Made by a program: the position numbers and the translations under genes | In this document: piece by piece, positions 1-14,510 of the stretch | How the letters are laid out: every line of letters starts with the position of its first letter | How positions within the stretch are numbered: position 1 is the stretch's first letter | Notes under the pieces: model-generated | The model's database searches: none | What the model was told of the DNA's origin: nothing | The model's input: only the letters and a program-made list of their open reading frames with translations | Source of the DNA: an uncultured Selenomonadales bacterium | GTDB taxonomy: Bacteria > Bacillota_C > Negativicutes > Selenomonadales > Selenomonadaceae | Length of the DNA: 14,510 nt | Direction of reading: 5' to 3' | Assembly (NCBI GenBank): GCA_937907035.1 | Contig: CALCTX010000117.1 | Span: 1-14,510, forward strand

Positions 1-2
1 TA

Positions 3-1013
3 GCATTTGCGGTGGCATTTTCCTTGATAACGGCTTTTCATATTGTACTGGGCGAGCTGGCACCGAAATCAATGGCCATCCAAAATGCGGAAGCAACAGT
101 TTTAGGCGTAGCGATGCCGATGCTCATTTTTCATCGGTTGATGCATCCGTTCGTTTGGGTTCTTAATCATGTAGCAAACTGGGTGGTGAAAATGCTGGGC
201 TTTGATCCGACCGCTGAAGAATCGGAAGCCCACACCGAAGATGAGATCCGTATTTTAATGGAAGATAGTCACAAAAAAGGATTTATTGATAAGACCGAGT
301 TCGACTTTGTTGATAATGTCTTTGATTTTTCCGATAAAAAAGTCCGTGATATCATGATTCCGCGAACAGATATGGTTTGTTTGTACCTGGAAGAAAGTGT
401 TGAGGAAAATATCCAGACGGCACTGACAAATCAGATGACCCGATATCCGATCTGCCGGGATGATAAGGATGATATCATCGGATTTTTGCATATCAAGGAT
501 TTGATGGAGGATATCTGTCATAATCGGCGGCCGAATTTTGAACATTTAGCCCGGACAGCTTTAATAGTGCCGGAGACAATGGCGGTCAGCCGGTTGCTGA
601 AGACAATGCAAAAAGGTTGCGAGCAGATAGCGATCGTTGTTGATGAATACGGCGGGACAGCCGGTATGGTAACCTTGGAAGATGTTGTCGAGGAGATAGT
701 CGGCGATATCCGTGATGAGTTTGATGAGGAACGTCCGGTTGTTGAACGGCGGGATGAGCTCACTTATTCAGTTGATGCGATGTTGCAGCTGGAAGAGTTT
801 GACGATATATTGGAACTGGATATCGAGGACGAAAATGTTGAGTCTATCGGCGGGTGGCTGCTTGATCAGGTAGAAGCGCCGCCACGGGTCGGACAGCAGA
901 TAGAATATAATGGTACGCTGTTTATTGTTGAAGAGGTTCGTAAGGTGCGGATAACCCGTATTTTGGTCAAACTTTCGCAGCCATTGGCAGAAGAACACGA
1001 TGAGATCGTTTAA
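3..1013 (+). CDS. CNNM/HlyC-CorC family membrane protein with CBS pair, 5'-truncated
   Basis: The reading frame is open from the window edge, so the N-terminus (most of the DUF21/CNNM membrane domain) lies outside. The visible part begins in the end of that domain with the family-typical segment HIVLGELAPK. It continues with a last hydrophobic stretch at about 100-200. A tandem CBS pair follows: the first from about RDIMIPRTDM to GFLHIKDLM (345-510), the second from ALIVPETMAV to GMVTLEDVVEEIVGDI (555-715). The C-terminal CorC/HlyC accessory domain spans about 750-990. Members of this family are inner-membrane proteins implicated in Mg2+/Co2+ or other divalent cation efflux. The old name hemolysin C is misleading. 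CBS pairs usually sense adenine nucleotides. The stop lies 12 nt before the uup start, suggesting co-transcription. Family assignment is secure; the transported ion is not. Confidence 0.9.
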   Translation, partial: AFAVAFSLITAFHIVLGELAPKSMAIQNAEATVLGVAMPMLIFHRLMHPFVWVLNHVANWVVKMLGFDPTAEESEAHTEDEIRILMEDSHKKGFIDKTEFDFVDNVFDFSDKKVRDIMIPRTDMVCLYLEESVEENIQTALTNQMTRYPICRDDKDDIIGFLHIKDLMEDICHNRRPNFEHLARTALIVPETMAVSRLLKTMQKGCEQIAIVVDEYGGTAGMVTLEDVVEEIVGDIRDEFDEERPVVERRDELTYSVDAMLQLEEFDDILELDIEDENVESIGGWLLDQVEAPPRVGQQIEYNGTLFIVEEVRKVRITRILVKLSQPLAEEHDEIV

Positions 1014-1025
1014 CAGGGGAAACGT

Positions 1026-2921
1026 ATGATACTGACGATAGAAAATCTGACAAAAGGATATGGCGAAAAAGAGCTGTTTACGGGCGTAAATCTTACGGTC
1101 AACGAAGGCGATAAGATCGGGATCGTCGGTATCAACGGTGCCGGAAAATCGACTTTATTGAAAACTATTGCCGGTCTGATACCGGCTGATGAAGGGAAGA
1201 TATCGCTGGTAAAGGGGATGCGGATCGGATATTTGGCGCAGGATAAGGAATTTGCGCCGGAGAATACCGTCCTCATGGAGGCTCTTGGCGGCAAAGATCC
1301 GTTGATGGAGGCTTTGCGCAGATATGAAACTTTATTGGCAGCTGTACGGGACGATCCGGCTGATAAGCTGGCGGAAAAACAACTCAGTGATTGTTCGGTT
1401 GAGATTGATGAACTTGGTGGCTGGGGGTTTGAGGCACAGGTAAAGCTTATTTTGACCAAGTTGGGATTTAGTGATTTTTCCCGCCGGGTAAAAGACCTGT
1501 CCGAAGGAGAAAGAAAACGGCTGGCGTTAGCAGCTACGCTTATTCAGCCCGCCGATGTTTTGCTGCTTGATGAACCGACCAATCATTTAGATGCGGCGGC
1601 TATTATTTGGCTGGAAGAATATCTGGCCGGGCAGAAAAGTGCTTTTTTGATGGTAACGCATGACCGATATTTTCTTGATAATACGGCAAAGCAGATTTTT
1701 GAACTCGATAAAGGGAAAGTTTATCTTTATACCGGGAATTACACTTTATTTCTGGAACAGAAGGAAGCCCGCATAGAACGAGCCGAGGCTGAAGAGAGAA
1801 AGAGGCAGAGTTTCTTGCGGCGGGAGCTGGTCTGGCTTCGTCGTGGGGCGCAGGCGCGCTCGACGAAACAAAAAGCCCGGATCGAACGTTATGAGGAAGT
1901 TAAAGCGCAGACGGTTGATCTGTCCCGAAACCAAGTGGAGATCGGATTAGCCGGCAGCCGATTGGGACGAACGGTTATTGAACTGGAAAAAGTGAATTTA
2001 TCGATTGCCGGGAAGCCGGTCGTAAAAGATTTTTCCTATATTGTCCGGCGGCGTGACCGGTTAGCTGTATTAGGGGCAAACGGCACCGGAAAATCGCTCC
2101 TGTTGGATATTTTCGCCGGTCGCCGTCAACCGGACAGTGGCCGGGTAGAGATAGGGCAGACGGTAAAGATCGGTTATTTCAGCCAGCAGCCGGCTGAAAT
2201 GGATGGGCGTTTGCGGGCTTTGGAATATATTCAAGAGGAAGCGCATCATCTTACTTTGGCTGATGGAACAAAACTTTCCGCTTCGCAGTTAATGGAACGG
2301 TTTTTATTTCCACCGGACCTGCAACGGGTTCCGGTCAGCCGGTTGTCCGGCGGAGAAAAACGGCGGCTGTTTTTATTGCGGTTGCTCATGAGTGCACCAA
2401 ATGTTTTGATCCTTGACGAGCCGACCAATGATCTTGATCTGGAAATGATGACAGTATTGGAAAACTTTATTGAGGATTTTGCCGGGGTACTGATATTTGT
2501 TTCTCAGGATCGGTTTTTTATTGATCGCTTAGCTGAACGGATCTGTGTTCCGGAAGGCGATGGCCGGTGGAATATCTGGACTGGCGGCTGGACTGACAAT
2601 GAAGACCGACTGAAACCGCAAAAAGAGGAAACGGTTGTTGCCAGGCCGGCGCAAAGACCGGAAGAAAAAAATAAATCCAATGAAAGCATTTCTTTACGAA
2701 AAAAGCTTTCCTTCAAAGAGCAGAAGGAGTATGCTGAAATAGAAGATATAATTGCCAGCCGGGAGGGGGAACTGAAAGTCGTTCAGTTACAGATGGCCGA
2801 ATGCAGTTCCGATTATGTACGGCTCGGTGAACTTACAAAAGAAGAGATCAGGTTGCAGACAGAAATTGCAACATTGCTCTCCCGTTGGGAATACTTGGAA
2901 AGTATTGTGAGCAATACATGA
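1026..2921 (+). CDS. uup: ABC-F family ATPase, Uup type
   Basis: A soluble protein of 631 residues with two ABC ATPase domains and no membrane segments. Domain 1 has Walker A GINGAGKST (35-43), signature LSEGE (about 158) and Walker B LLLDEPTNHLD (D182/E183). Domain 2 has Walker A GANGTGKS (about 349-356), signature LSGGE (about 440) and Walker B LILDEPTNDLD (about D464). Between them is the charged, helical ABC-F linker. A lysine/glutamate-rich C-terminal tail from about residue 555 (LRKKLSFKEQKEYAEIE onward) looks like the Uup coiled-coil domain. ABC-F proteins act on ribosomes or nucleic acid structures. Uup is linked to precise transposon excision and branched DNA/RNA intermediates. The ATG start is preceded by an AGGGGAA ribosome binding site. 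Another ABC-F subgroup is possible, but the C-terminal tail favours Uup. Confidence 0.88.
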   Translation: MILTIENLTKGYGEKELFTGVNLTVNEGDKIGIVGINGAGKSTLLKTIAGLIPADEGKISLVKGMRIGYLAQDKEFAPENTVLMEALGGKDPLMEALRRYETLLAAVRDDPADKLAEKQLSDCSVEIDELGGWGFEAQVKLILTKLGFSDFSRRVKDLSEGERKRLALAATLIQPADVLLLDEPTNHLDAAAIIWLEEYLAGQKSAFLMVTHDRYFLDNTAKQIFELDKGKVYLYTGNYTLFLEQKEARIERAEAEERKRQSFLRRELVWLRRGAQARSTKQKARIERYEEVKAQTVDLSRNQVEIGLAGSRLGRTVIELEKVNLSIAGKPVVKDFSYIVRRRDRLAVLGANGTGKSLLLDIFAGRRQPDSGRVEIGQTVKIGYFSQQPAEMDGRLRALEYIQEEAHHLTLADGTKLSASQLMERFLFPPDLQRVPVSRLSGGEKRRLFLLRLLMSAPNVLILDEPTNDLDLEMMTVLENFIEDFAGVLIFVSQDRFFIDRLAERICVPEGDGRWNIWTGGWTDNEDRLKPQKEETVVARPAQRPEEKNKSNESISLRKKLSFKEQKEYAEIEDIIASREGELKVVQLQMAECSSDYVRLGELTKEEIRLQTEIATLLSRWEYLESIVSNT

Positions 2922-2934
2922 GGAGGGTTTTGAT

Positions 2935-4203
2935 TTGGTTGATATTCAAAAATTATTAGCGGCCCGGAGAGCCTTTCAAATGCCCAATGATGAATTGCGG
3001 TCAACTTCGGCAGCTTTTCGTTATGATATTGAACATGGGTTTACAGATCCGGAGGTTTCAACGCTCCGACTTTTGCCGGCGTATACGAATTTGCCGGACG
3101 GGCGGGAAACAGGAACTTATATTGCGCTCGATTTTGGCGGGACAAATATTCGTGTATTGCGGATACGCCTGCTGGGCAATGGCTGTTTTGATGTTGAAGC
3201 CCGGGTTGAGCGGCCGTTCAAGGTCGAAGGACAGTATGATTATATCGGTGAAGGGACAACAGCTGATGAGCTATGGGACTTTACAGCTGAACTGATAGAT
3301 GCTGTAGTTGCGGGCGATAAAGAAACGCCTTATAAATTGGGGCATACATTTTCGTTCCCGTCTAAACAGACGAATATATATGATGCCCGGCTGATATGTT
3401 GGACTAAAGAGTTTCGTACGCAGGGTGTCGAAGGTGAGATAGTTAATGATCAGCTGAAAGCCGCTTTGGCGCGGAGAGGCTTGACCAATATTGAGCCGGT
3501 AGCAGTTGTCAACGATACGGTAGCCGCATTGCTGTCTGCGGCGTATGCACACCGGAAAACGTTTATCGGCTCGATCATAGCAACCGGTCATAATACTTGT
3601 TATTTAGAAGACTTTGGCGGGCAAAAGACGCCGATGGTTATCAATATGGAATCCGGCAATTTCAGCAAACTGTTGCCTAATCCGTATGACAGCCGCCTGG
3701 ATGCCGCTTCGCAACGGCCGGGTGAGCAGCGTATGGAAAAGATGGTTTCCGGTAAATACCTCGGTGTATTGTTTACCTTGGCTCTTGCCGATGCAGTAGG
3801 GCCAAAAGTTCTTGATAATCCGTTCAGCAGTGTTGATATGTCAGCTTTGCTGGCGGCACCGGATGGCGGGGCAGATATTCTGACGCGGCATACCGGTGAG
3901 GAGTTCAGCCAGGGGGAAGCATTTGCAGCTAATGCTTTGGCGGAAGAGATAGTTCGCCGGTCAGCCCGGCTGATAGCCGCGACCTATGCCGGAACACTCT
4001 GGCATTTAGCCGGCTCCGGAATGGTTTTGCCACAGAAGATCGCTATTGAAGGCAGTGTATATGCAAAAATGCCGGTTATCCGTGAAGCTTTGACAGAGGC
4101 GCTTTATGATCTGTTAGGACACGAAGCGACCGGTATTGAGATCGATTATGTAACTGATGGCGGCGGACTGGGCGCAGCTCTGGCCGCGGCAATGGTTGAA
4201 TAG
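2935..4203 (+). CDS. Eukaryote-like hexokinase (hexokinase family, not ROK)
   Basis: Predicted ATP-dependent hexose kinase of 422 residues, making glucose-6-phosphate or a related hexose phosphate in the cytoplasm. Motifs of the eukaryotic-type hexokinase family appear in order: phosphate 1 loop DFGGTNIR (66-73); sugar-binding LGHTFSFP (135-142) followed by WTKEF, nearly the classical hexokinase signature; VNDTVA with the expected catalytic Asp194; phosphate 2-like ATGHNTCY (216-223); NMESGNF (237-243), the counterpart of the glucose-contacting NxExGxF motif; and a Gly-rich C-terminal adenosine-side segment DGGGLGAAL. Length is close to a single eukaryotic half-hexokinase. The start is TTG at 2935, with AGGAGGG at 2921-2927, 7 nt upstream, overlapping the uup stop codon. 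That overlap suggests translational coupling. Substrate range cannot be read from the sequence. Confidence 0.9.
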   Translation: MVDIQKLLAARRAFQMPNDELRSTSAAFRYDIEHGFTDPEVSTLRLLPAYTNLPDGRETGTYIALDFGGTNIRVLRIRLLGNGCFDVEARVERPFKVEGQYDYIGEGTTADELWDFTAELIDAVVAGDKETPYKLGHTFSFPSKQTNIYDARLICWTKEFRTQGVEGEIVNDQLKAALARRGLTNIEPVAVVNDTVAALLSAAYAHRKTFIGSIIATGHNTCYLEDFGGQKTPMVINMESGNFSKLLPNPYDSRLDAASQRPGEQRMEKMVSGKYLGVLFTLALADAVGPKVLDNPFSSVDMSALLAAPDGGADILTRHTGEEFSQGEAFAANALAEEIVRRSARLIAATYAGTLWHLAGSGMVLPQKIAIEGSVYAKMPVIREALTEALYDLLGHEATGIEIDYVTDGGGLGAALAAAMVE

Positions 4204-4223
4204 AGTTTTGAGGGGGAATTATC

Positions 4224-5487
4224 GTGGCAGAAAAAGTGCCGCATGTTGTAATAGTTGGTGCCGGATTTGGCGGATTAAAGACAGCAAAGCTTTTAGCAGG
4301 AGAAAATGTCCGTATCACATTGATCGATAAAGAAAATTATCATCTGTTTCAGCCACTTTTGTATCAGGTGGCAACATCGGAATTGTCAACAAATGAGATC
4401 GCCTATCCAATCCGGGCGTTTTTCAAAAAGAATTACAATGTCAATTTTTTAATGGCAGAGGTAACGGGATTTGATACAGAGAAAAAATCAGTGCTGACAG
4501 ATCGCGGTGAAGTTGCCTATGATTATCTCATCCTGGCTGTCGGAGCAACGACGAATTTCTTTGGGATGCAGAATGTCGAAAAGAATTCCTATCCGATGAA
4601 GAGCTTGCCGGAAGCGTTAAAACTTCGCGATCATATCATTCAGATGTTTGAACAGGCTGACCGGACCGAAGATCCGGAAATTCGCAAACGACTGTTGACA
4701 TTTGTTTGTGTCGGAGGCGGTCCGACCGGCGTGGAAATGGCCGGAGCATTAAGTGAACTGGTTTACAAGGTTATGGCCGAAGATTATCACCAGTTCAATT
4801 TCCGGGAGGTCAGCATTCAGCTGGTTGAGGCTATGGATGCAGTACTGCTGATGATGCCGGAATCATTGCGACATGAGGCAGAACAGGTGTTACGGCAACG
4901 GCTTAACGTTGAGGTTCGGTTACACGCTCAGGTTATGGATTACGATGGACGGTACGGTAATACCGACGGAAACTGTTATTTGGGCAGCCGGAGTAAAAGC
5001 CGTTCCTTTGACAACCAAATTAGGAGCAGAAATTGACCGCGCCGGAAGACTTATGGTCAATGAATATTTGCAGGTAAGAGGCTTTAAAGATATATTCGCG
5101 ATCGGCGACTGTGCACATTTTGAGCAAGACGGACGGCCGTTGGCGACAATTGCGCCGGTAGCGACACAACAGGCTGAGGTATGTGTGCAAAATCTGCTGA
5201 AGCTTATCAACTTTAATAATGAACCATGGATATCCTTCTATTACAAAGATGTCGGTTCCATGGCCACGATCAGCAATGGGCAGGCTGTTGTCGCAATGGA
5301 CAGCAGGTTGGGCAAGATACAGCTGACAGGATTTTTGGCTTGGATTTCCTGGATGGTCGTGCATATAGTTCGCCTGGCCGGAACCTATACCAACATTGTG
5401 GTACTTTGGAAATGGCTGCTGAATTATTTTATCGACCTCAGATTGGGCCGGATCGTTATTTATAAGGAAAAAGCGAAAGAGGAATAA
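4224..5487 (+). pseudogene. ndh: Type II NADH dehydrogenase (NDH-2), split by a frameshift
   Basis: A single-polypeptide NADH:quinone oxidoreductase of the membrane surface, read in two frames. Frame A starts at GTG 4224 after GAGGGGG and has the FAD-binding GAGFGG (12-17), NYHLFQPLLYQVAT (38-51) and the second dinucleotide fold GGGPTGVEMAG (164-174). It is collinear with the family to VMDYDG (about 4949) and then runs into unrelated residues, stopping at 5036. Frame B continues the family from DGTVIPTETVIWAAGVKA (from 4948) through the FAD-binding DIFAIGDCA, the quinone-site-like APVATQQAE and the hydrophobic C-terminal membrane anchor to the stop at 5485-5487. Joining the frames gives a near full-length enzyme, apparently short by several residues at the join. 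Either this copy is inactivated or the assembly has a local error. No ribosomal slippery site is obvious. Confidence 0.87.
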
Positions 5488-5488
5488 A

Positions 5489-5523
5489 AATAACCGCATG
5501 CTTTATTACAGCATGCGGTTATT
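5489..5523. terminator. Bidirectional rho-independent terminator between ndh and deoC
   Basis: A perfect 14-bp inverted repeat: left arm 5489-5502 (AATAACCGCATGCT), loop 5503-5509, right arm 5510-5523. On the + strand the stem ends in a T run (TTATTTTAT). On the - strand the complementary A run 5485-5490 becomes a T run. It sits just after the ndh stop and 20 nt beyond the deoC stop on the other strand, so it can serve both convergent units. Confidence 0.9.
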
Positions 5524-5542
5524 TTATGTTAAATTTTAAATT

Positions 5543-6208
5543 TCATATTTCGTCATCGTGCTTGTCTTTGAGGAGTTTTACTGCTGCACTGCAACCGAGA
5601 CGGTCACAGCCTTCTTTTAAGTATTCTTTCATGTCGCTGATGTTGCGGATACCGCCGGCAGCTTTGATCTTTACTGTACCGGCCAGCTGTTCCTTGAATA
5701 AGAGGACATCGCTGTGAGTGGCTCCGGACGGCCCAAATCCGGTTGAGGTTTTTATGTAATCGGCACCGGCATCTTTAACACATTGACATAATCTGATCTT
5801 TTCATCGTCTTCCAGATAGCAGGTTTCGATAATAACCTTGAGAATCTTCTTTTTTACAGCTTTTTTGATTTCGGAAATTTCCCGGGTGATATAATCATAA
5901 TCACCGTTTTTTACTGCAGTGATATTTATTACCATATCTATTTCATCGGCGCCGTTTTTAACAGCATCTTTGGCGGCAAAAACTTTGGCGGCGGTGGTAT
6001 CATAACCCAACGGGAACCCTATAACGGCACAGATCGTTAAGGTGCTGCCGTAGGTTTCTTTTACCCGGCTGATGTAAGACGGCGGTATGCAGACAGAGGC
6101 GGTCTTATAAACTATAGCCTGTTCGCAAAGCTCCTGGATCTCGGACCAGGTGGCTGTCGGGGACAGTAATGTGTGGTCGACGTGGGCGAGAATTTCTGAT
6201 GCGTTCAT
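5543..6208 (-). CDS. deoC: Deoxyribose-phosphate aldolase
   Basis: A 221-residue class I aldolase (TIM barrel) that cleaves 2-deoxyribose-5-phosphate to glyceraldehyde-3-phosphate and acetaldehyde in deoxynucleoside catabolism. The family core is complete: HVDHTLL near the N-terminus, EIDMVINI with Asp91, the Schiff-base lysine Lys153 in YIKTSTGFGPSGAT, and Lys182 in IKAAGGIR. An upstream in-frame ATG at 6223 exists, but its ATGGAGG contains the ribosome binding site. The GGAGG lies 8 nt before the ATG at 6208, so the start at MNASE is preferred. The gene stands alone, divergent from the amino-sugar operon, with no other deo genes in the window. Confidence 0.95.
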   Translation of the reverse strand: MNASEILAHVDHTLLSPTATWSEIQELCEQAIVYKTASVCIPPSYISRVKETYGSTLTICAVIGFPLGYDTTAAKVFAAKDAVKNGADEIDMVINITAVKNGDYDYITREISEIKKAVKKKILKVIIETCYLEDDEKIRLCQCVKDAGADYIKTSTGFGPSGATHSDVLLFKEQLAGTVKIKAAGGIRNISDMKEYLKEGCDRLGCSAAVKLLKDKHDDEI

Positions 6209-6241
6209 GAGAAAAACCTCCATTTTTTTGGGAGTACCATA

Positions 6242-6270
6242 TTGTTAAAAAGATTATATCATAATATTAT
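6242..6270 (+). promoter_or_regulatory. Predicted promoter of the nanE-crr operon
   Basis: TTGTTA (6242-6247), a 17-nt spacer and TATTAT (6265-6270) match the sigma-70/A pattern moderately well. The predicted leader is about 90 nt of AT-rich DNA before the nanE ATG. The -10 element coincides with the 10-bp palindrome ATAATATTAT (6261-6270), a possible operator. The match is weaker than that of the opposing deoC promoter. No convincing cre site was seen. Confidence 0.4.
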
Positions 6271-6281
6271 TGCGGAGTCAG
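6253..6281 (-). promoter_or_regulatory. Predicted deoC promoter
   Basis: Read on the - strand: CTGACT (6281-6276), a 17-nt spacer, then a perfect TATAAT (6258-6253) preceded by TG one base upstream, an extended -10. The predicted start of transcription is near 6246, about 38 nt before the chosen deoC start. It is a consensus match only. Confidence 0.55.
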
Positions 6282-6367
6282 TTGAAAAAGATAGTAAAAA
6301 TAGAGGAAATATACTGTTTTGTGGAGAAGATAATAAAACGATAAAGAATAAGGTGAGTGAGACTATT

Positions 6368-7033
6368 ATGCTGGATGAATTAAAAGGAAAATTGATTGTA
6401 TCGTGTCAGGCACTGAGTGATGAACCGCTTTATGGTTCTGAAACAATGGGGAAAATGGCGTTGGCGGCAAAGCAGGGCGGAGCAGCAGCTATCAGGGCAC
6501 AGGGCGTTGCGGACATAACTGAGATAAAAAAGGCGACAGGATTGCCGGTAATCGGTTTGATCAAACAGAATTATGCTGATTCAGATGTTTATATTACGCC
6601 GACTATGACTGAGGTCGAAGCACTGATTGCGGCACCGTGTGAAATGATCGCGCTTGATATGACAATGCGGCCACGCCCGAATCGCGAAAAGATGCTGACT
6701 CTTGTAAAGGCGATAAAAGCAGCCGGCAAGCTGGTACTGGCGGATATTTCGACGATTGAGGAAGGGGTTATGGCTGAAGAGTTTGGTGCTGACGCAGTTT
6801 CAACAACACTGTCAGGGTATACGCCGTATTCACCTCAGCATAAAGGCCCTGATTTGGCATTGGTTGCGGCTTTGGCTGAAGCGTTAACGGTTCCGCTTAT
6901 TGCAGAAGGCAGAATCGGAACACCGGCGGAGCTGCAGGAAGCACTGAAGGCGGGAGCGTACGCTGTAGTAGTCGGGTCAGCGATAACCCGGCCGCAGCTT
7001 ATTACAAAATCATTTGTTGATGCTTTGACATGA
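6368..7033 (+). CDS. nanE: N-acylmannosamine-6-phosphate 2-epimerase
   Basis: A 221-residue cytoplasmic TIM-barrel enzyme interconverting ManNAc-6-P and GlcNAc-6-P in sialic acid/ManNAc catabolism. Family features: VSCQALSDEPLYG near the N-terminus (phosphate and substrate end), AAAIRAQG (39-46), GLIK with the expected catalytic Lys66, IALDMTMRPRP (94-104), STTLSGYTPYS (145-155), IAEGRIGTP with Glu180, and VVGSAITRP (201-209). The frame stays open upstream to a TTG at 6242. Those 42 residues are AT-rich and unlike the family, while AAGGTGAG at 6350-6357 sits 10 nt before ATG 6368, which fixes the start. It is the first gene of the operon that supplies NagA and NagB downstream. Confidence 0.94.
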   Translation: MLDELKGKLIVSCQALSDEPLYGSETMGKMALAAKQGGAAAIRAQGVADITEIKKATGLPVIGLIKQNYADSDVYITPTMTEVEALIAAPCEMIALDMTMRPRPNREKMLTLVKAIKAAGKLVLADISTIEEGVMAEEFGADAVSTTLSGYTPYSPQHKGPDLALVAALAEALTVPLIAEGRIGTPAELQEALKAGAYAVVVGSAITRPQLITKSFVDALT

Positions 7034-7090
7034 TAGAAAATCGATGATGATATGTAATTACAGAAATACATATTTACGGGAGGCGTAAAG

Positions 7091-8479
7091 ATGTCGTTGG
7101 CAGGTATTTTGATCATACTTGGATTTTTTATATTCGCAGCATTGATGGTGGCCCGGATTATACCACCGCTTCTGACTTTACCCCTCATGGCTGCCTGGAC
7201 TTGCCAGGTGGCGCATTTGCCGATAAATGATTATCTCAATGTAATTTTGCTTGCGGGAAGTATGAAGCTGGCCGGAGCAATGGCAGTTGTTATTTTTGGG
7301 GCGATGTTTGCCCGGGTAATAATGAAAGCGGGGATTTCGGATTCCTTGATCAAAAAGGCGGCAGAACTGGCAGGTGATCAACCGCGGTTTATTGCGATTC
7401 TGATTTTTGGTGCGGTTGTGTTTGTGTTTTTGGGAATGAGCGGTCTGGGGGCTGTTATTATGGCGGGGTCAATAGCATTGCCGATAATGACAGGGGCGGG
7501 GATTGCTCCGCTTGATGCCGCAGTTATTCTGGTCTTGGGAATTAGTACCGGCCTTATGGCCAATCTGGCAAATTATGGTACATATATTGGTATTTTTGGC
7601 GGGCAGGTGGTAACAGAATGCTATCCGCCAGCTTTGTTGATTTGCGGATTGTTTTCTCTGCTTTATATTTTTGTCAATATTCGGGCTGGCAGGAATAGTC
7701 ACGGTTCGTTTGTCGGGATAATAAAGTTGCTTATCCTTGGAGCAGTTTCAGTACCGGGGAGTTTTGTGAAATCTTTGGGCGGTGTTTTCCAGGTACAGGA
7801 GACGACATTGTTTTCCAAAAAGGATAATACGCCGGCAGCGGCACTGGTTACGCCGGCTATTCCGTTGATAACGGTTTATGCTTTTCGCTATATTTGCGGT
7901 TTCAATGTAAAAGCAGGCGGAGTCGATCCGGTAGCAGCAGCAATATGCGGCTTTATTTTGGCCTCGGTTTATGCGGTGTTATTGACGAAACCGCGGGAGT
8001 TGATAAATATTATGGCGGGAGCGATTGTCGAGGGAATTCGTGACGTGGCAGGAGTTTTGTTTCTGTTCATGGGTATCGGGATGCTGGTAGCAGCTGTTAT
8101 GCACCCGGCGGTAGCGGCAGTTTTGAACCCGTTGCTTTTGGATGTTGTGCCGAAATCTTCGGTAGGATTGGCGTTGTTTTTCGCCATACTTGCACCAACG
8201 GCACTTTACCGGGGACCGTTAAACATGTTTGGAATGGGCGCCGGGATTGCTGTACTGCTTTATGCGCTGCATTTAATTGAGCCGGCAGTGCTTTGCGGAA
8301 TGTTTATCGGCGTACAATTTTTGCAGGGAATTTCTGATCCGACAAATTCATCAAACACTTGGATTGCTGATTTTGTGCGGGCAGATACAGGAGATATTCT
8401 CAGAAAAACGCTTCCGTACAGCTGGGGTATGTGTTTGGCAATGTTACTGGTTGTGCTTATCCGGCAGGGAGGATTATGA
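7091..8479 (+). CDS. Multi-TM transporter, ion-transporter-superfamily-like, substrate unknown
   Basis: A 462-residue, very hydrophobic protein with roughly 11-12 predicted membrane segments and short polar loops. The overall look is that of the ion-transporter (IT)/anion permease group: two similar halves and Gly/Ala-rich broken helices such as FLGMSGLGAVIMAGSIALP (about 117-135), MANLANYGTYIGIFGG and TALYRGPLNMFGMGAGI. I do not recognise a specific family with confidence. Similar permeases sit beside hydantoinase/oxoprolinase genes in other genomes, but that is recollection rather than a search. The ATG follows GGGAGG at 7079-7084. The stop overlaps the start of the HyuA-like gene (ATGATG over TGA), implying tight coupling. 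By context it probably imports the substrate of this operon, such as an N-acyl amino sugar, ManNAc or sialate-derived compound, or the HyuA substrate. Confidence 0.75.
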   Translation: MSLAGILIILGFFIFAALMVARIIPPLLTLPLMAAWTCQVAHLPINDYLNVILLAGSMKLAGAMAVVIFGAMFARVIMKAGISDSLIKKAAELAGDQPRFIAILIFGAVVFVFLGMSGLGAVIMAGSIALPIMTGAGIAPLDAAVILVLGISTGLMANLANYGTYIGIFGGQVVTECYPPALLICGLFSLLYIFVNIRAGRNSHGSFVGIIKLLILGAVSVPGSFVKSLGGVFQVQETTLFSKKDNTPAAALVTPAIPLITVYAFRYICGFNVKAGGVDPVAAAICGFILASVYAVLLTKPRELINIMAGAIVEGIRDVAGVLFLFMGIGMLVAAVMHPAVAAVLNPLLLDVVPKSSVGLALFFAILAPTALYRGPLNMFGMGAGIAVLLYALHLIEPAVLCGMFIGVQFLQGISDPTNSSNTWIADFVRADTGDILRKTLPYSWGMCLAMLLVVLIRQGGL

Positions 8480-10608
8480 TGCGCAGAATAAGAATCGGCA
8501 TTGATGTCGGTGGCACGTTTACTGATGCGGTAGCAATTGATGGCGACAGTTATGAGATCATTGCGCAAGCCAAGATTCCGACGACCCATGATGACAGTGA
8601 TGGTGTGGCCAAGGGTATAATAAAAATATTGCAGCTGGTGCTTGAGAATGCAAACGCGGATCCGTCAGAGGTTACGTTTATTGCTCACGGAACAACACAG
8701 GCAACGAATGCTCTCCTTGAGGGTGATACGGCAACTGTCGGAATAGTGGCTTTAGGCGACGGTATTATTTCGGGGCGGGTGGCTGAAGATACAAAAATTG
8801 GTGATATAGAGCTGGCACCGGGCAAATATCTTCATACCTGTCATCGTTTTATTAAAACAGCGATGGCTTCGGATGATAAAGAGTCAATAAAGGCTGCTTT
8901 TGCTGAACTTAAAAAAGAGGGAGCCACAGTTATAGCTGCTACAGAAGCATTTAGTGTTGATGATTCGGCAAATGAGGAACAAACAGTCCAATTGGCCAGA
9001 GATGAGGGATTTTATGCGACTGGCGGATATGAGGTTTCTCGTTTATACGGGCTGCGGGTTCGGACCCGGACCGCTGTTGTTAATGCCAGCCTGATCCCAA
9101 AGATGCTGGAGACGGCTGATCTTACTGAGGCGTGTGTAAAAAGTTCGGGAATTGGAGCTCCGTTGATGATAATGCGCTGTGACGGCGGGGTTATGACGGT
9201 TGATGAGGTTCGGCGCAGGCCGATTCTGACAATGCTTTCAGGATTGGCGGCCGGGGTTGCCGGAGCACTTATGTATGAGAAGATGTCTGATGGTATTTTT
9301 CTTGAAGCAGGGGGGACATCAACAGATATTTCGGTCATAAAAAATGGCCGGGTAATGGTCCGCTATGGTGAAATCGGCGGGCATAAGATGTATCTTAATT
9401 CACTTGATGTAAGAACATTAGGGGTTGCCGGGGGCAGCCTGATCAGGGTGGAAAACGGAAAAATAACTGATGTAGGTCCGCGCAGTGCGCATATTGCCGG
9501 GCTTAAATATGAGGCTTTTTCGGACCCAATGATAAACCCAAAGGTGGAGTATGTGGCTCCTTGTGCTGATGATGCGCCGGTTTATGCTGTGATAAGTGAA
9601 AATGGCAATCAGTTGGCATTGACCTTGGCTGGGGCGGCTAATGTAATTGGTTCGATTCCGGGTGGCGATTATGCGGCGGGGAATCATGCCGGGGCACTTG
9701 CGGCTTGGACGGCGTTTGGTAAAACGCTGGGACTGACGGCTGAAGAAGCGGCAAAGCAGGTAATGGATATTGCCGCTGAAAAAATCGGGGAAATAGTGAG
9801 GAGCCTTATCAAAGACTATGAGCTGGTGCCGAGCGTAGTGACACTGGCAGGAGGCGGTGGCTCCGGCGGAGTTGTAGTTCCGTATCTTGGAAAGAAAATG
9901 GGACTTGATTGGAAGTTGGTAAAAAATGCACCAATAATTTCTACAATCGGAGTTGCTCTGGCAATGGTCCGGGAGGTAGTGGAACGAACGGTAAATTCGC
10001 CGACGGAAGAAGATATCCGATTGATTCGGCGGGAGGCAAAAGAGCGCGTGCTGAAATCAGGGGCAGCCGAAGAAGCAGTGGAAATTGCAATTGAAATTGA
10101 TCAGAAAGCAAATATTTTGCGGGCGATTGCGATGGGAACTACCGAGTTGCGGGCGAAGGATATGGTAAGCCGGGAGTTGTCAGAAGCGGAGCGGAGTGTT
10201 TTGGCAGCAAAGGCAATTGGTACGGATAAAGTGAAGAGTATAGCCCGCTGCGGGAGATGGGAGGTCTATGAGGGCTGGCAGGAAAAAACTCGCTTAGGAG
10301 TACTTAAAACGAGGCAGTTCTTGGCCTGTATTATGGACCGTGACGGCGTGATACGGTTGAAAACGGTTGTCAGCGGAGTGTTATGCACGACAATCAGCAA
10401 CTTGGAAACCGAGCTCACCGAGTTCATTGATAAAAATACGGAATACGGCACTATCGGCGGTCAGCTGCCTAAATTGTATGTGTTTTTCGGGGAGCGGCAG
10501 TTGGATTTGTCAGGGCTGATTACGGTAGAACAAGTATCAGCAGTTCTTGATATGGAATTTGAAGGTTTTTTGGAAAAAGAGACGGTAATTATAGTTGCCG
10601 GAAAATGA
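8479..10608 (+). CDS. HyuA-like protein (hydantoinase/5-oxoprolinase A family, ASKHA ATPase), orphan
   Basis: About 709 residues. The N-terminus carries the HyuA-type phosphate loop IGIDVGGTFTDAV (6-18) and HGTTQATNALLEG, and the second phosphate loop GGTSTDIS is present, preceded by EA instead of the usual DM. Near residue 456 is LAGGGGSGG, where family members usually have a GGAGPLH-like segment, so this is a divergent branch. The last 200 or so residues are not familiar to me. Known members pair with HyuB to hydrolyse hydantoins or 5-oxoproline using ATP, or belong to ATP-dependent carboxylases. No HyuB partner is present. Two consecutive ATGs (8476, 8479) overlap the transporter stop. GGGAGG ends at 8472, so spacing favours 8479. 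The position between the transporter and nanK suggests action on the imported amino-sugar compound, which is inference only. Confidence 0.85.
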   Translation: MRRIRIGIDVGGTFTDAVAIDGDSYEIIAQAKIPTTHDDSDGVAKGIIKILQLVLENANADPSEVTFIAHGTTQATNALLEGDTATVGIVALGDGIISGRVAEDTKIGDIELAPGKYLHTCHRFIKTAMASDDKESIKAAFAELKKEGATVIAATEAFSVDDSANEEQTVQLARDEGFYATGGYEVSRLYGLRVRTRTAVVNASLIPKMLETADLTEACVKSSGIGAPLMIMRCDGGVMTVDEVRRRPILTMLSGLAAGVAGALMYEKMSDGIFLEAGGTSTDISVIKNGRVMVRYGEIGGHKMYLNSLDVRTLGVAGGSLIRVENGKITDVGPRSAHIAGLKYEAFSDPMINPKVEYVAPCADDAPVYAVISENGNQLALTLAGAANVIGSIPGGDYAAGNHAGALAAWTAFGKTLGLTAEEAAKQVMDIAAEKIGEIVRSLIKDYELVPSVVTLAGGGGSGGVVVPYLGKKMGLDWKLVKNAPIISTIGVALAMVREVVERTVNSPTEEDIRLIRREAKERVLKSGAAEEAVEIAIEIDQKANILRAIAMGTTELRAKDMVSRELSEAERSVLAAKAIGTDKVKSIARCGRWEVYEGWQEKTRLGVLKTRQFLACIMDRDGVIRLKTVVSGVLCTTISNLETELTEFIDKNTEYGTIGGQLPKLYVFFGERQLDLSGLITVEQVSAVLDMEFEGFLEKETVIIVAGK

Positions 10609-10624
10609 TTACGGGGTGAAAACA

Positions 10625-11518
10625 TTGCCACAGCTTGCTTGTGTTGATATTGGCGGGACAATAATTAAATATGGTGTGGCGGAAAGTTCCGGGCGTCTGC
10701 TGGAACAGGAAAAACTTGATAATCCAGTTGCTGAAAGCGGCAGTGGGAGAATGCTTTCTTTGATAATCAGCAGAATTAATGAATTGAAGGCGCGATATAA
10801 TTTGAAAGGAATCGCAGTCGCAACGGCCGGAATGGTGAATGCGGACAGTGGGGTCATAACTTTTGCTGCCGGGAATACTTTTCCCGGTTACACAGGAACC
10901 CGGGTGCGTGATATACTGACAGAGAAATGCGGTTTGCCGTGTACAGTGGAAAATGATGTAAACTGTGCCGTCATGGGCGAGTGGTGGCTTGGTGCTGGCA
11001 AAGGGGCATCGCCGCTTGTCTGTATTACAGTCGGTACGGGAATCGGCGGGGCAGTTATGATTGATGGCAAACTGCTTCGGGGAATAAACGGCTGTGCCGG
11101 AGAAATCGGATTGATGCATATAGGCAGCTCAACACTGGAGGCGCTGGCGGCAACATCAACGTTAGTCAGGGAGGCAGCGGAAAAAAGCGGGTTACATAAA
11201 GAAGATGTTGACGGAGAAATGGTTTTTGCCATGGCTCAGGCAGGAAATAAACTTATGCAGCAGCTGATACAACAGCAGATAAATTATTTAGCAGATGGTA
11301 TTGCCAATATCTGTTGCCTTATAAATCCGGAGGTTATTGTTTTGGGCGGTGGAATAATGGCTCAACGGCAATATTTACGGCCGTTGATTGATGAAGCTGT
11401 TTCCCGGCGGGTTTTGATGGTTCAGCGGGAAAAAATGCGAATAGAATTTGCCCGGTTGGGAGATACAGCCGGGATGATTGGTGCGGTATATAATTTTATA
11501 CAGCGCAATAAACGATAA
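10625..11518 (+). CDS. nanK: ROK-family sugar kinase, probable N-acetylmannosamine kinase
   Basis: About 297 residues of the ROK family. It has the N-terminal ATP phosphate loop VDIGGTIIKYG (7-17), catalytic Asp111 in VENDVNCAVMGEWWLGAGKG, the second phosphate loop VGTGIGGAV (about 136-144) and a late PEVIVLGGGI. Directly after the GEIG motif (159-162), the usual His and the CxCGxxGCxE zinc loop are absent; the text goes from GLMHIG to SSTLEALAATS. Neighbouring nanE, nagA and nagB make ManNAc the best substrate guess, giving ManNAc-6-P. Glucose, GlcNAc or another hexose cannot be excluded. The start is taken as TTG 10625 because GGGGTG lies 6 nt upstream. GTG 10616 is an alternative adding three residues. 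Confidence 0.85.
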   Translation: MPQLACVDIGGTIIKYGVAESSGRLLEQEKLDNPVAESGSGRMLSLIISRINELKARYNLKGIAVATAGMVNADSGVITFAAGNTFPGYTGTRVRDILTEKCGLPCTVENDVNCAVMGEWWLGAGKGASPLVCITVGTGIGGAVMIDGKLLRGINGCAGEIGLMHIGSSTLEALAATSTLVREAAEKSGLHKEDVDGEMVFAMAQAGNKLMQQLIQQQINYLADGIANICCLINPEVIVLGGGIMAQRQYLRPLIDEAVSRRVLMVQREKMRIEFARLGDTAGMIGAVYNFIQRNKR

Positions 11519-11535
11519 AAGGGAGGAATACTTTA

Positions 11536-12276
11536 ATGGAGATAAGAGTAAACGCAACTTATGAGGAAATGTCTGAGGCTGCATGTAATATGCTGATCAA
11601 GCAGATCAACAAAAAACCGGATGCGGTTTTGGGGCTGGCCTCCGGCAGTACACCGTTGCGGTTGTATGAAATGCTGAGTGATGCAAATAAACGCGGTCTG
11701 GTAGATTTTTCCCGGGTACGGACATTTAATCTTGATGAGTACATCGGGCTTAGTCCGGATAATGAGCAAAGTTATCATTACTTTATGACCAATAATTTTT
11801 ACAGCAAGGTTAATTTAAAGCCGGAAAATGTCTTTATTCCTAACGGAATGGCCGATGACATTGCAACGGAATGCGCCCAGTACAGTGCGGCTTTGGAAGC
11901 AGCCGGGGGAATTGATATCATGGTATTGGGTATCGGTGCCAATGCGCATATCGGCTTTAATGAACCGGGCGACAGTTTTGTTGCCGAAACTCATGTTGTT
12001 GAGCTTACTGAAACGACACGGGCCGCCAATGCCCGCTTTTTTGCCGATGAGGATGATATCCCGCATTGGGCGATCAGTATGGGGATCAGGGATATTATGT
12101 ATGCACATAATATTTTATTACTGGCGAACGGAGCCGGAAAAACTGAAGCGGTTTATAAAGCAGTATGCGGAGATATTACTCAGATGGCACCGGCTTCGGT
12201 CTTGCAGTTGCATCGAAATGTTTTGGTACTGACGGATGAAGCTGCCGCGGCTCGCTTGCCGGCAGACTTTACGTGA
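11536..12276 (+). CDS. nagB: Glucosamine-6-phosphate deaminase
   Basis: A 246-residue enzyme converting glucosamine-6-phosphate to fructose-6-phosphate and ammonia, the last step of this pathway before glycolysis. Motifs are all present: phosphate-binding GLASGSTPL (33-41), FNLDEYIGL with Asp67, GIGANAHIGFNEPG with His138 and Glu143, and the TRAANARFF segment after residue 160. The length matches the shorter Firmicutes-type enzymes, which lack the allosteric C-terminal extension of the E. coli protein. The usual Gly before the active-site His is Ala137. Asn at position 136 is the form seen in Gram-positive enzymes. GGGAGG lies 9 nt before the ATG. The gene is 17 nt after nanK and 8 nt before nagA. 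Confidence 0.96.
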   Translation: MEIRVNATYEEMSEAACNMLIKQINKKPDAVLGLASGSTPLRLYEMLSDANKRGLVDFSRVRTFNLDEYIGLSPDNEQSYHYFMTNNFYSKVNLKPENVFIPNGMADDIATECAQYSAALEAAGGIDIMVLGIGANAHIGFNEPGDSFVAETHVVELTETTRAANARFFADEDDIPHWAISMGIRDIMYAHNILLLANGAGKTEAVYKAVCGDITQMAPASVLQLHRNVLVLTDEAAAARLPADFT

Positions 12277-12284
12277 GGCGGATC

Positions 12285-13460
12285 ATGAAAGCGATAATAA
12301 ACGGCAGGGTTGTTGTTCCGGATGAAACGGGTAATTTTGTAGCCCGGGACGGGTTGGGGATGTTGTTTTCAACTAAGATTGAAAAAATAGTTCCGTCAGC
12401 AGAAATTGAAGCTCAGCTGTCAGCCTGCGAAAGTGTTATCGATGTGCAAGGCGCGTATGTTTCACCGGGCTTTATCAATGTTCATTTGCATGGTTGTGCC
12501 GGCAGCGATGTGATGGATGGTACAGTTGAAGCTTTGGAAACGATCAGTTCATTTCAGGCCAAAACCGGTGTGACCGGTATCTGTCCGACAACGATGACGA
12601 ATCCCTGGGACAATATAGTACGAGCGTTGCAAGCAGTTCGTCAGGCGAAACAAAAGGGCCTTTCCGGAGCTCGGATGATCGGCGTGCATTTAGAAGGCCC
12701 GTTTGTCAGTCGGGAATGTTGCGGAGCGCAGCCGGCAGAGGATATTATACCGGCTGATTTTTCCCGGATCCGGGACTTTGCGGATATGATCAAGATAATA
12801 ACTGTGGCCCCGGAAGAATTGACCGATGAAAGATTTATGGCACAATGTCACGAGGCCGGTATTGTTGTTTCATTGGGGCATAGCGCGGCAAGTTATGCAG
12901 TTGCGCGGCGGGCAATTGATAATGGAGGAGCAACGCATATCACACACCTTTGCAATGGGATGAAAACCTTGCATCACCGGGAACCGGGACTTATCGGTGC
13001 GGCATTGGATACGACGGTTGATTGCGAACTGATCGCTGATGATATACATATCCATCCGGCAATGCAGCGGATCATTTTTCAGGCCAAGCAGGCGGCACAT
13101 ATAATCTTGATCACTGATTCCATGCGGGCGTGTGGTCTGGGCGATGGTGTTTCAGAGCTTGGCGGGAAACAGGTTTTTGTCCATGGCCTAAGGGCAGTGC
13201 TTGAAGACGGTACTTTAGCGGGCAGTGTGTTGACACTTGACCGGGCAGTTGCCAATTTTGCCGCTAATACGGGGGCCGATATAGCTAAAGTTATTGAGTT
13301 TGTTACCAAGGTTCCGGCGGAGAATCTGGGGATCTATCAGGAAACCGGGTCTTTAGCCGTCGGGAAACAAGCCGATATAATAATTTTTAATGATGATCTG
13401 GTGATACAGAAAACCATTGTCGGCGGAGAAATAGTTTATGATAAGGAAATTGGAGGTTGA
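12285..13460 (+). CDS. nagA: N-acetylglucosamine-6-phosphate deacetylase
   Basis: About 391 residues of the amidohydrolase superfamily. It removes acetate from GlcNAc-6-P to give GlcN-6-P, linking NanE to NagB. Visible motifs: PGFINVHLHG (61-70), HLEGPF with metal ligand Glu137, SLGHS with His199, THITHLCNGM with His221 and neighbouring His218, ADDIHIHP (251-258), catalytic Asp278 in LITDSMRA, and the C-terminal GKQADIIIFNDD. The segment after HLEGPF reads CCGAQP, as in Bacillus-type enzymes with Gln rather than His. An in-frame GTG at 12273 overlaps the nagB stop, but GAGGCGG just before ATG 12285 favours the ATG. Its end overlaps the ribosome binding site of the crr gene. Confidence 0.95.
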   Translation: MKAIINGRVVVPDETGNFVARDGLGMLFSTKIEKIVPSAEIEAQLSACESVIDVQGAYVSPGFINVHLHGCAGSDVMDGTVEALETISSFQAKTGVTGICPTTMTNPWDNIVRALQAVRQAKQKGLSGARMIGVHLEGPFVSRECCGAQPAEDIIPADFSRIRDFADMIKIITVAPEELTDERFMAQCHEAGIVVSLGHSAASYAVARRAIDNGGATHITHLCNGMKTLHHREPGLIGAALDTTVDCELIADDIHIHPAMQRIIFQAKQAAHIILITDSMRACGLGDGVSELGGKQVFVHGLRAVLEDGTLAGSVLTLDRAVANFAANTGADIAKVIEFVTKVPAENLGIYQETGSLAVGKQADIIIFNDDLVIQKTIVGGEIVYDKEIGG

Positions 13461-13465
13461 TGACG

Positions 13466-13939
13466 ATGTTCGGATTTGGTAAAAAAGAAACAGTTATCAA
13501 GGTGGCAGCACCGTTTGCCGGAGAAATTTGTGATATAACAGCAGTTCCGGATGAGGTGTTTTCCGAGAAAATGCTCGGTGATGGCTTTGCAGTCATTCCT
13601 TCTGGCGGCGTATCCGAGTTGTCAGCACCATGTGATGGCAAGGTAACAATGGTTGCGGATACGGCTCATTCGGTGGTAATAACTGCCGGCGGGGCAGAAC
13701 TGCTCCTTCATATCGGTCTGGATACGGTCGAATTAGCAGGAGAAGGCTTTACTGCTCTGGTCAAAGAAGGAGAAACGGTTAAACAGGGAACGCCGTTGAT
13801 AAAGTTTGATCAGGCCGCAATAACCGGAGCGGGCAAAAATCCGATAACGATGATAACGATTTCTAATATGGATGATGTAAAATTGCAAAAGAAAAATCTC
13901 CAAAACGCCGAAGCAGTTTTGGAGATTGAAGGAAACTGA
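13466..13939 (+). CDS. crr: PTS EIIA component, glucose (Crr) type
   Basis: About 157 residues, a stand-alone phosphotransferase system EIIA of the glucose family. It has the lipoyl-like beta-sandwich signature: VAAPFAGEI (13-21), GDGFAVIP (38-45), SAPCDGKV (53-60), His68 in TAHSV and the phospho-acceptor His82 in LLLHIGLDTVEL. These correspond to His75 and His90 of E. coli Crr. Phosphate is taken from HPr and passed to an EIIB or EIIBC that is not in the window. GGAGG at 13452-13456 lies inside the nagA end. ATG 13466, 9 nt on, is preferred to TTG 13457 or ATG 13460. The last gene of the operon, its stop abuts the stop codon of the opposing gene. Confidence 0.9.
   Translation: MFGFGKKETVIKVAAPFAGEICDITAVPDEVFSEKMLGDGFAVIPSGGVSELSAPCDGKVTMVADTAHSVVITAGGAELLLHIGLDTVELAGEGFTALVKEGETVKQGTPLIKFDQAAITGAGKNPITMITISNMDDVKLQKKNLQNAEAVLEIEGN
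13895..13927 (-). terminator. Predicted terminator of the leftward gene, inside the crr 3' end
   Basis: A perfect 12-bp inverted repeat (left arm 13895-13906, right arm 13916-13927) within the crr coding sequence. Read on the - strand, the loop contains a C(TTCG)G tetraloop and the stem is followed by TTTTTC from 13896 down, the form of an intrinsic terminator. On the + strand no T run follows, so it should mainly serve the leftward gene ending at 13940. Confidence 0.7.
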
Positions 13940-14442
13940 TTATTTGTTATTGCCAAGCAGACTGTCTTTAAGGGTCGGAGCAGCCGGTGCTGCCGGTTTG
14001 TCGATTGGCTGGATATCTATGTCGAGCGCATCGCCGTTTTTGATCGGATCGGTGAGCTCGGCTTTTTTGTTGTTAATCAGGATCGTGACACGGACTTTGC
14101 TGGCAGCAGATGGCGGTGTGAAACCAACTGCCAGGAGCGCATCGCTGACCAGATTGGTCTTGCGTTCCGAACGCTCATAAGTGACGCTGCAACCTTCACT
14201 GATGATAGTGCTTGGCGAAGCCGGGCGGTCGTTGACTTTGAGCGTGATCGTAGCCGATGGGATCTTGTGTTCAGCTTTATTGAAATAAATGATATTATAG
14301 GCATCGGAATCGGAGATGTTCAAAACATCACTTAATTTTGGCTCGCCCGGAGTTATATATTCAATCCGGTCACCGTCCTGGATCGAGGCCGAGATAGTAG
14401 TCGGCTGATCGTTCAGGAGGAGATATGGCGATTGTGTATATG
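13940..14442 (-). CDS. C-terminal part of an unidentified protein with repeated beta-rich segments (possibly FtsA-like)
   Basis: The leftward frame is open from the adapter junction to the stop at 13940-13942, about 165 residues; the 5' part is missing. It can be read in frame upstream of the TTG at 14323, so that codon is not the real start. Three segments resemble each other: LLLNDQPTTI...DGDRIEY, TLKVNDRPAS...EGCSVTYE and TILINNKKAEL...NGDALDIDI. They are spaced about 53-60 residues apart and suggest tandem beta-grasp-like modules, followed by a Pro/Ala-rich tail. Long FtsA-like proteins of some Bacillota end in such modules, but I cannot confirm that here. No membrane segment or catalytic motif is visible. 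The codons nearest 14442 may already be adapter index rather than genome. Confidence 0.6.
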
Positions 14443-14474
14443 ATCTCGTATGCCGTCTTCTGCTTGAAAAAAAA
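14443..14474 (+). other. Illumina P7 adapter sequence plus A8: assembly contamination
   Basis: Positions 14443-14466 match all 24 bases of the standard Illumina index-adapter tail (ATCTCGTATGCC, then GTCTTCTGCTTG). They are followed immediately by eight A residues, the usual read-through pattern past the end of a short insert. The match is from memory of the adapter, but 24 exact bases plus poly-A leaves little room for chance. The bases just upstream do not match the rest of the adapter, so the join is artificial. Confidence 0.95.
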
Positions 14475-14510
14475 TTGGTTCCTTGCGGCGGATAGCCGGC
14501 AGCTTTTAAT
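14475..14510. other. 36 bases of uncertain linkage beyond the adapter
   Basis: Ordinary-looking sequence after the adapter. On the - strand it reads LKAAGYPPQGT in the same frame as the preceding partial gene, so it might be a nearby part of that gene. Because an artefact lies between, neither order nor distance can be trusted. Confidence 0.4.

Follow-up and report, generated by a model that had tools for sequence, protein, structure and literature searches.

An Illumina P7 adapter tail that replaces native bases in register within an FtsA-like gene of an uncultured Selenomonadales bacterium

Introduction

Contamination of microbial assemblies with Illumina adapter sequence has been described by Moeller et al. 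(2024; PMC11536531), and was located near contig ends. In the available portions of that source, the adapter letters lay at contig ends and also beside portions of the forward- or reverse-specific adapter. Adapter chimeras and mixed clusters have likewise been described (PMC3163567), with mispriming named, in the available portions of the text, only for mixed sequencing primers.

The window analysed here is a stretch of 14,510 nucleotides from an uncultured Selenomonadales bacterium (contig CALCTX010000117.1, positions 1 to 14,510). It resembled the contamination in PMC11536531, as far as the available portions describe it, in that a bacterial contig had been assembled with Illumina adapter letters in it, in this case close to the window end. 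Unlike the cases in those portions, the window carried the P7 tail only, the tail lay inside a gene, and native bases were replaced in register. The window was most similar to sites in the Klebsiella phages Marfa and EI, the Vibrio phage D series, Proteus phage Saba, Rhizobium phage Palo and an IMG/VR contig (L004), all of which had a P7 tail plus an A-run, no Read-2 primer or index, and unchanged length. A native match of at least six bases to the 3' end of the P7 oligo occurred in relatives at four of the five such sites with a native relative, but in none of the 30 relatives compared for the window. No description of an in-register P7 substitution was found among papers on adapter contamination and mispriming in one open-access library, in the portions of text available, which is weak evidence.

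Results

Positions 14443 to 14466 of the forward strand read ATCTCGTATGCCGTCTTCTGCTTG and matched the tail of the Illumina P7 adapter (reverse complement of the P7 oligo) at 24 of 24 bases, with no mismatch. Eight A's followed (14467 to 14474, forward strand), read as A calls past the end of the P7 tail. The P7 24-mer was unique in the window even with up to three mismatches, and occurred in none of 200 dinucleotide shuffles of the window. The sequence-only reading had reported an exact 24-base P7 tail followed by A8 at 14443 to 14474, which was borne out, and had proposed an adapter screen of the window. That screen was run with 14-mers from eight standard Illumina adapter sequences; it returned the P7 tail, together with the letters that an older single-read adapter has in common with it, and no separate adapter. 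No Read-2 primer, Nextera sequence or index preceded the P7 tail according to the 14-mer screen, and gene sequence adjoined it directly. The adapter letters were absent at the matching place in all 30 relatives compared, and ended 36 bases short of the window end. The 32 bases at 14443 to 14474 are a synthetic adapter artefact and no biological feature.

The native sequence to the left of the adapter (13940 to 14442, minus strand) encoded the C-terminal part of an FtsA/PilM-like protein with a ThiS-like tail. To the right (14475 to 14510, minus strand), the same gene continued upstream as LKAAGYPPQGT until truncated by the window end. The product of the 189-residue frame matched ThiS, and nine homologous proteins (P0001 to P0009) were 36 to 61% identical to it over the part covered; a further protein search from P0001 returned five extra homologues, which were left out of the analysis. 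The best genome relative of the gene was 68% identical. The window carried the tail of the gene only, and the FtsA/actin-like ATPase domain was judged on a full-length relative of 827 residues in an uncultured Selenomonadales MAG (L001). This relative scored above the cut-off for Pfam FtsA (51.4 vs. 31.8 bits), with a ThiS match in its tail, and below that for the NCBIfam ftsA equivalog (90.5 vs. 175.85 bits), and the gene is therefore termed FtsA-like. Of 101 genomes searched in the family to which that MAG belongs, 93 had a relative of the gene. The best relative's genus contained a single genome, and a same-species search of 189 genomes of its family gave a best DNA match of 69% identity over 423 bases; no closer (same-species) genome was found in that genus or among those 189 genomes.

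The spacing of the two flanks was compared in 30 relatives, namely the L001 gene and 29 of the 30 best loci among the 93 matching genomes (L122, which is the L001 gene, was excluded). For each relative, the best-scoring offset of LKAAGYPPQGT was determined against the first clean residue to the left of the adapter. All 30 relatives gave a best offset of exactly -23 residues, which is also the offset in the window; scores were 22 to 44 at -23 and 0 to 19 at the next-best offset. By this agreement, both flanks belong to one gene at its native spacing, and the 32 bases are a replacement of native ones and not an addition to them. The adapter thus replaces about 32 native bases of the FtsA-like gene with no net length change, and the gene is likely continuous and not broken. 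The sequence-only reading had held that the adapter interrupts the leftward gene and that linkage to 14475 to 14510 is unsafe. Neither view agreed with the comparison, since native sequence of equal length was replaced and the last 36 bases encoded the next upstream part of the gene at the right spacing in all 30 relatives. Long reads would be expected to show about 32 different bases at this place, rather than simply to lack the adapter.

The minus-strand frame from 14509 to 13940 was open through the adapter (189 residues) and across it read ...GTNFFSSRRRHTRSYTQ... The part derived from the adapter and A8 began at the third base of the N codon and ended at the first base of the S codon, with FFSSRRRHTR in between, and the SYTQ that follows was the gene continuing. 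The arginine-rich run, earlier taken as translated adapter throughout, was so for FFSSRRRHTR, but SYTQ belongs to the gene. False protein residues are limited to about ten to twelve. The run SSRRRHTR occurred in none of the 30 relatives compared, and had no match in one open-access library, where absence is weak evidence. The arginine-rich run is merely translated adapter and has no biological meaning.

A scan of IMG/VR returned the identical 32-mer of P7 tail plus A8 in at least 120 stretches, and 122 copies were present among the matches listed. A TruSeq Read-2 primer lay within 60 bases upstream in 67 of the 122 listed copies and a Nextera sequence in 47, and neither was intact upstream in the remaining 8. 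Three of these 8 were degraded adapter (L029, L048 and L117), and five adjoined other DNA in the manner of the window (L004, L010, L032, L044 and L050). Distance to the nearer end of the fetched stretch, which need not be a contig end, was 10 bases or less for 73 of the 122 listed copies and 200 bases or less for 117; the other 5 were more than 200 bases from both ends, and 4 of them were tail-only. Ordinary read-through brings a Read-2 primer or Nextera sequence ahead of P7 (114 of the 122 listed copies); the window has neither, and belongs to the rarer tail-only class, in which a P7 tail and A-run are flanked on either side by native sequence and net length is unchanged.

Two IMG/VR contigs (L084 and L116) carried adapter on both strands, and L116 continued into poly-G past the A's.

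Besides the window, 8 tail-only sites were recognised, with upstream context read for part of the listed phage records: four IMG/VR contigs (L004, L010, L044 and L050), Klebsiella phages Marfa (L032) and EI, the Vibrio phage D series, Proteus phage Saba and Rhizobium phage Palo. A native relative was found for 5 of the 8 (Marfa/EI, Vibrio D, L004, Saba and Palo); L010 and L050 had no relatives in viral contigs beyond themselves. Net length changed at none of the 5 sites with a native relative, and at 4 of the 5 the native relative matched six or more bases at the very 3' end of the P7 oligo. Marfa (MN044033) and EI (MN106245) carried the same artefact at the same place, aligned without gaps over 832 bases to the native sequence of two other phages, and the native sequence matched the initial bases of the P7 tail over 12 to 13 contiguous positions (12 of the first 12). 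The 11 Vibrio phage D records shared one site; phage D65 aligned without gaps over 832 bases to two native records, which matched 14 of the 15 initial bases of the P7 tail (6 contiguous at the P7 3' end, 11 of the first 12).

At L004, two relatives were compared (L190 and L191; a third, L192, was left out). Against L190, net length was unchanged and the native match ran to 7 contiguous bases, with 10 of the first 12 identical; L191, which is more distant, had five of the six P7 end bases. Saba aligned without gaps to a relative with 65% protein identity that carried CGAGAT. Palo also aligned without gaps to two relatives (about 74% identical), and these were without the hexamer; the Palo record itself read ATATCG and departed from P7 at the third base.

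Non-native bases after the P7 tail were all A in 11 of 11 Vibrio records (26 positions inspected). The A-run took four forms among these records (2, 4, 3 and 2 records), and a native G was retained between A calls in 6 of the 11. Marfa and EI differed by one A at their shared site. An inserted molecule would account less well for such variable, interleaved A's than would mixed calls from full-length strands and short strands that have run out.

Full-adapter copies in phage records either had extra bases relative to their relatives or marked a junction. In the record of Klebsiella phage EI (MN106245; L127), labelled complete, a TruSeq adapter with index occurred at 64562, and the sequence to its right matched staphylococcal phages.

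Several other features of the window were recorded. A gene for an NDH-2-like pyridine nucleotide-disulphide oxidoreductase (4224 to 5487, plus strand) was split into two frames. Near 4949 the window was about 20 bases shorter than four aligned relatives, read by eye, in which the frame was open. The split is either a real mutation or a second consensus error. A run of amino-sugar genes at 6242 to 13939 encoded ManNAc-6-phosphate epimerase, a hydantoinase A-like protein, a ROK kinase, NagB, NagA and a glucose-type PTS IIA, with a hexokinase ahead of it at 2935 to 4203. A hydrophobic protein of 462 residues (7091 to 8479, plus strand) matched nothing in Pfam or NCBIfam at E 0.01. No RNA genes or tRNAs were found in the window.

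Discussion

The 32 bases at 14443 to 14474 are P7 end plus A8 that replace sequence of the FtsA-like gene, and this replacement probably arose by priming of the P7 oligo inside the gene. The starting point was observed directly, namely a P7 tail without Read-2 primer or index, adjoined on both sides by the gene in register. The P7 oligo would prime within the gene, either on the flow cell or while the library was amplified, its 3' end (...CGAGAT) annealing to a native match and giving strands that end in P7, as the tail-only sites suggest. In one cluster, short and full-length strands would then be read together, so that the calls pass through the P7 tail, turn to A where the short strands run out, and become native again. 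Register would be kept because the full-length native strand returns at the same cycle number, at which native calls would resume. An assembler may accept such an artefact as the consensus path if many clusters show it at one and the same site, and trimmers keyed to the start of the Read-2 primer would miss it.

Mispriming with mixed calls is favoured by the absence of length changes at the 5 tail-only sites with a native relative and by the native 3'-end match at 4 of them. By analogy with those sites, about the first six bases of the P7 tail in the window may coincide with native sequence. At the window site itself, the native hexamer CGAGAT was present in 0 of 30 relatives, and 3 of the 30 had its first two bases. 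The 30 relatives matched 1 to 5 of 13 bases at the P7 3' end, which is about chance. The lack of the hexamer counts against the annealing step for the window, but weakly, since the closest relative was only 68% identical. Mispriming is considered likely for the window, and its main rival is read-through followed by overlap consensus.

The rival would have a short-insert read-through at a contig end overlapped with a second contig, with the mismatched tail kept in register. The position of the adapter 36 bases from the window end is consistent with it, as are the clustering of adapter contamination near contig ends in public assemblies in the available portions of PMC11536531 and the location of 117 of the 122 listed IMG/VR copies within 200 bases of either end of the fetched stretch; an overlap-consensus step would likewise preserve register. 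Read-through would, however, be expected to leave a Read-2 primer, or Nextera sequence, and an index before P7, as in 114 of the 122 listed copies, where the window has gene sequence, and it leaves the native P7 3' matches at 4 of the 5 tail-only sites unexplained. It is regarded as a rather unlikely origin, with perhaps a minor share of the probability.

Disruption of the gene by a 32-base adapter insertion, or a false join between two contigs that do not belong together, has precedent in the full-adapter copies of phage records that show extra bases relative to their relatives, and, for a false join, in phage EI with its staphylococcal-phage-like sequence to the right of the adapter at 64562. 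It is very improbable for the window, where it is contradicted by flanks at the same spacing as in 30 of 30 relatives. Genuine genomic sequence equal to P7 plus A8 by chance and encoding an arginine-rich loop would accord with the frame being open through the adapter, but is hardly credible given the exact 24-base match with none in 200 shuffles, the absence of SSRRRHTR from all 30 relatives, and the identical 32-mer in at least 120 IMG/VR stretches.

Returning to mispriming of the P7 oligo, the tail-only sites together point, with somewhat better than even confidence, to a distinct and under-recognised class of artefact in public genomes, in which P7 plus A's overwrite about 30 to 37 native bases through in-cluster mispriming and of which the window would be a bacterial example. 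If so, it would need a genome match of six bases or more to the end of the P7 oligo, and it would escape trimming, break no contig and mimic a real arginine-rich protein variant. Being internal to a gene and keeping its length, such an artefact would be missed by contig-end trimming and by Read-2-primer screens. Deposited phage genomes are affected, namely 11 Vibrio phage records at one site and two Klebsiella phage records, labelled complete, also at one site. The remedy would be to screen contigs over their whole length for the P7 tail plus A-run and to mask about 37 bases. For the window, 14443 to 14474 should be masked, and the FtsA-like gene and its linkage retained.
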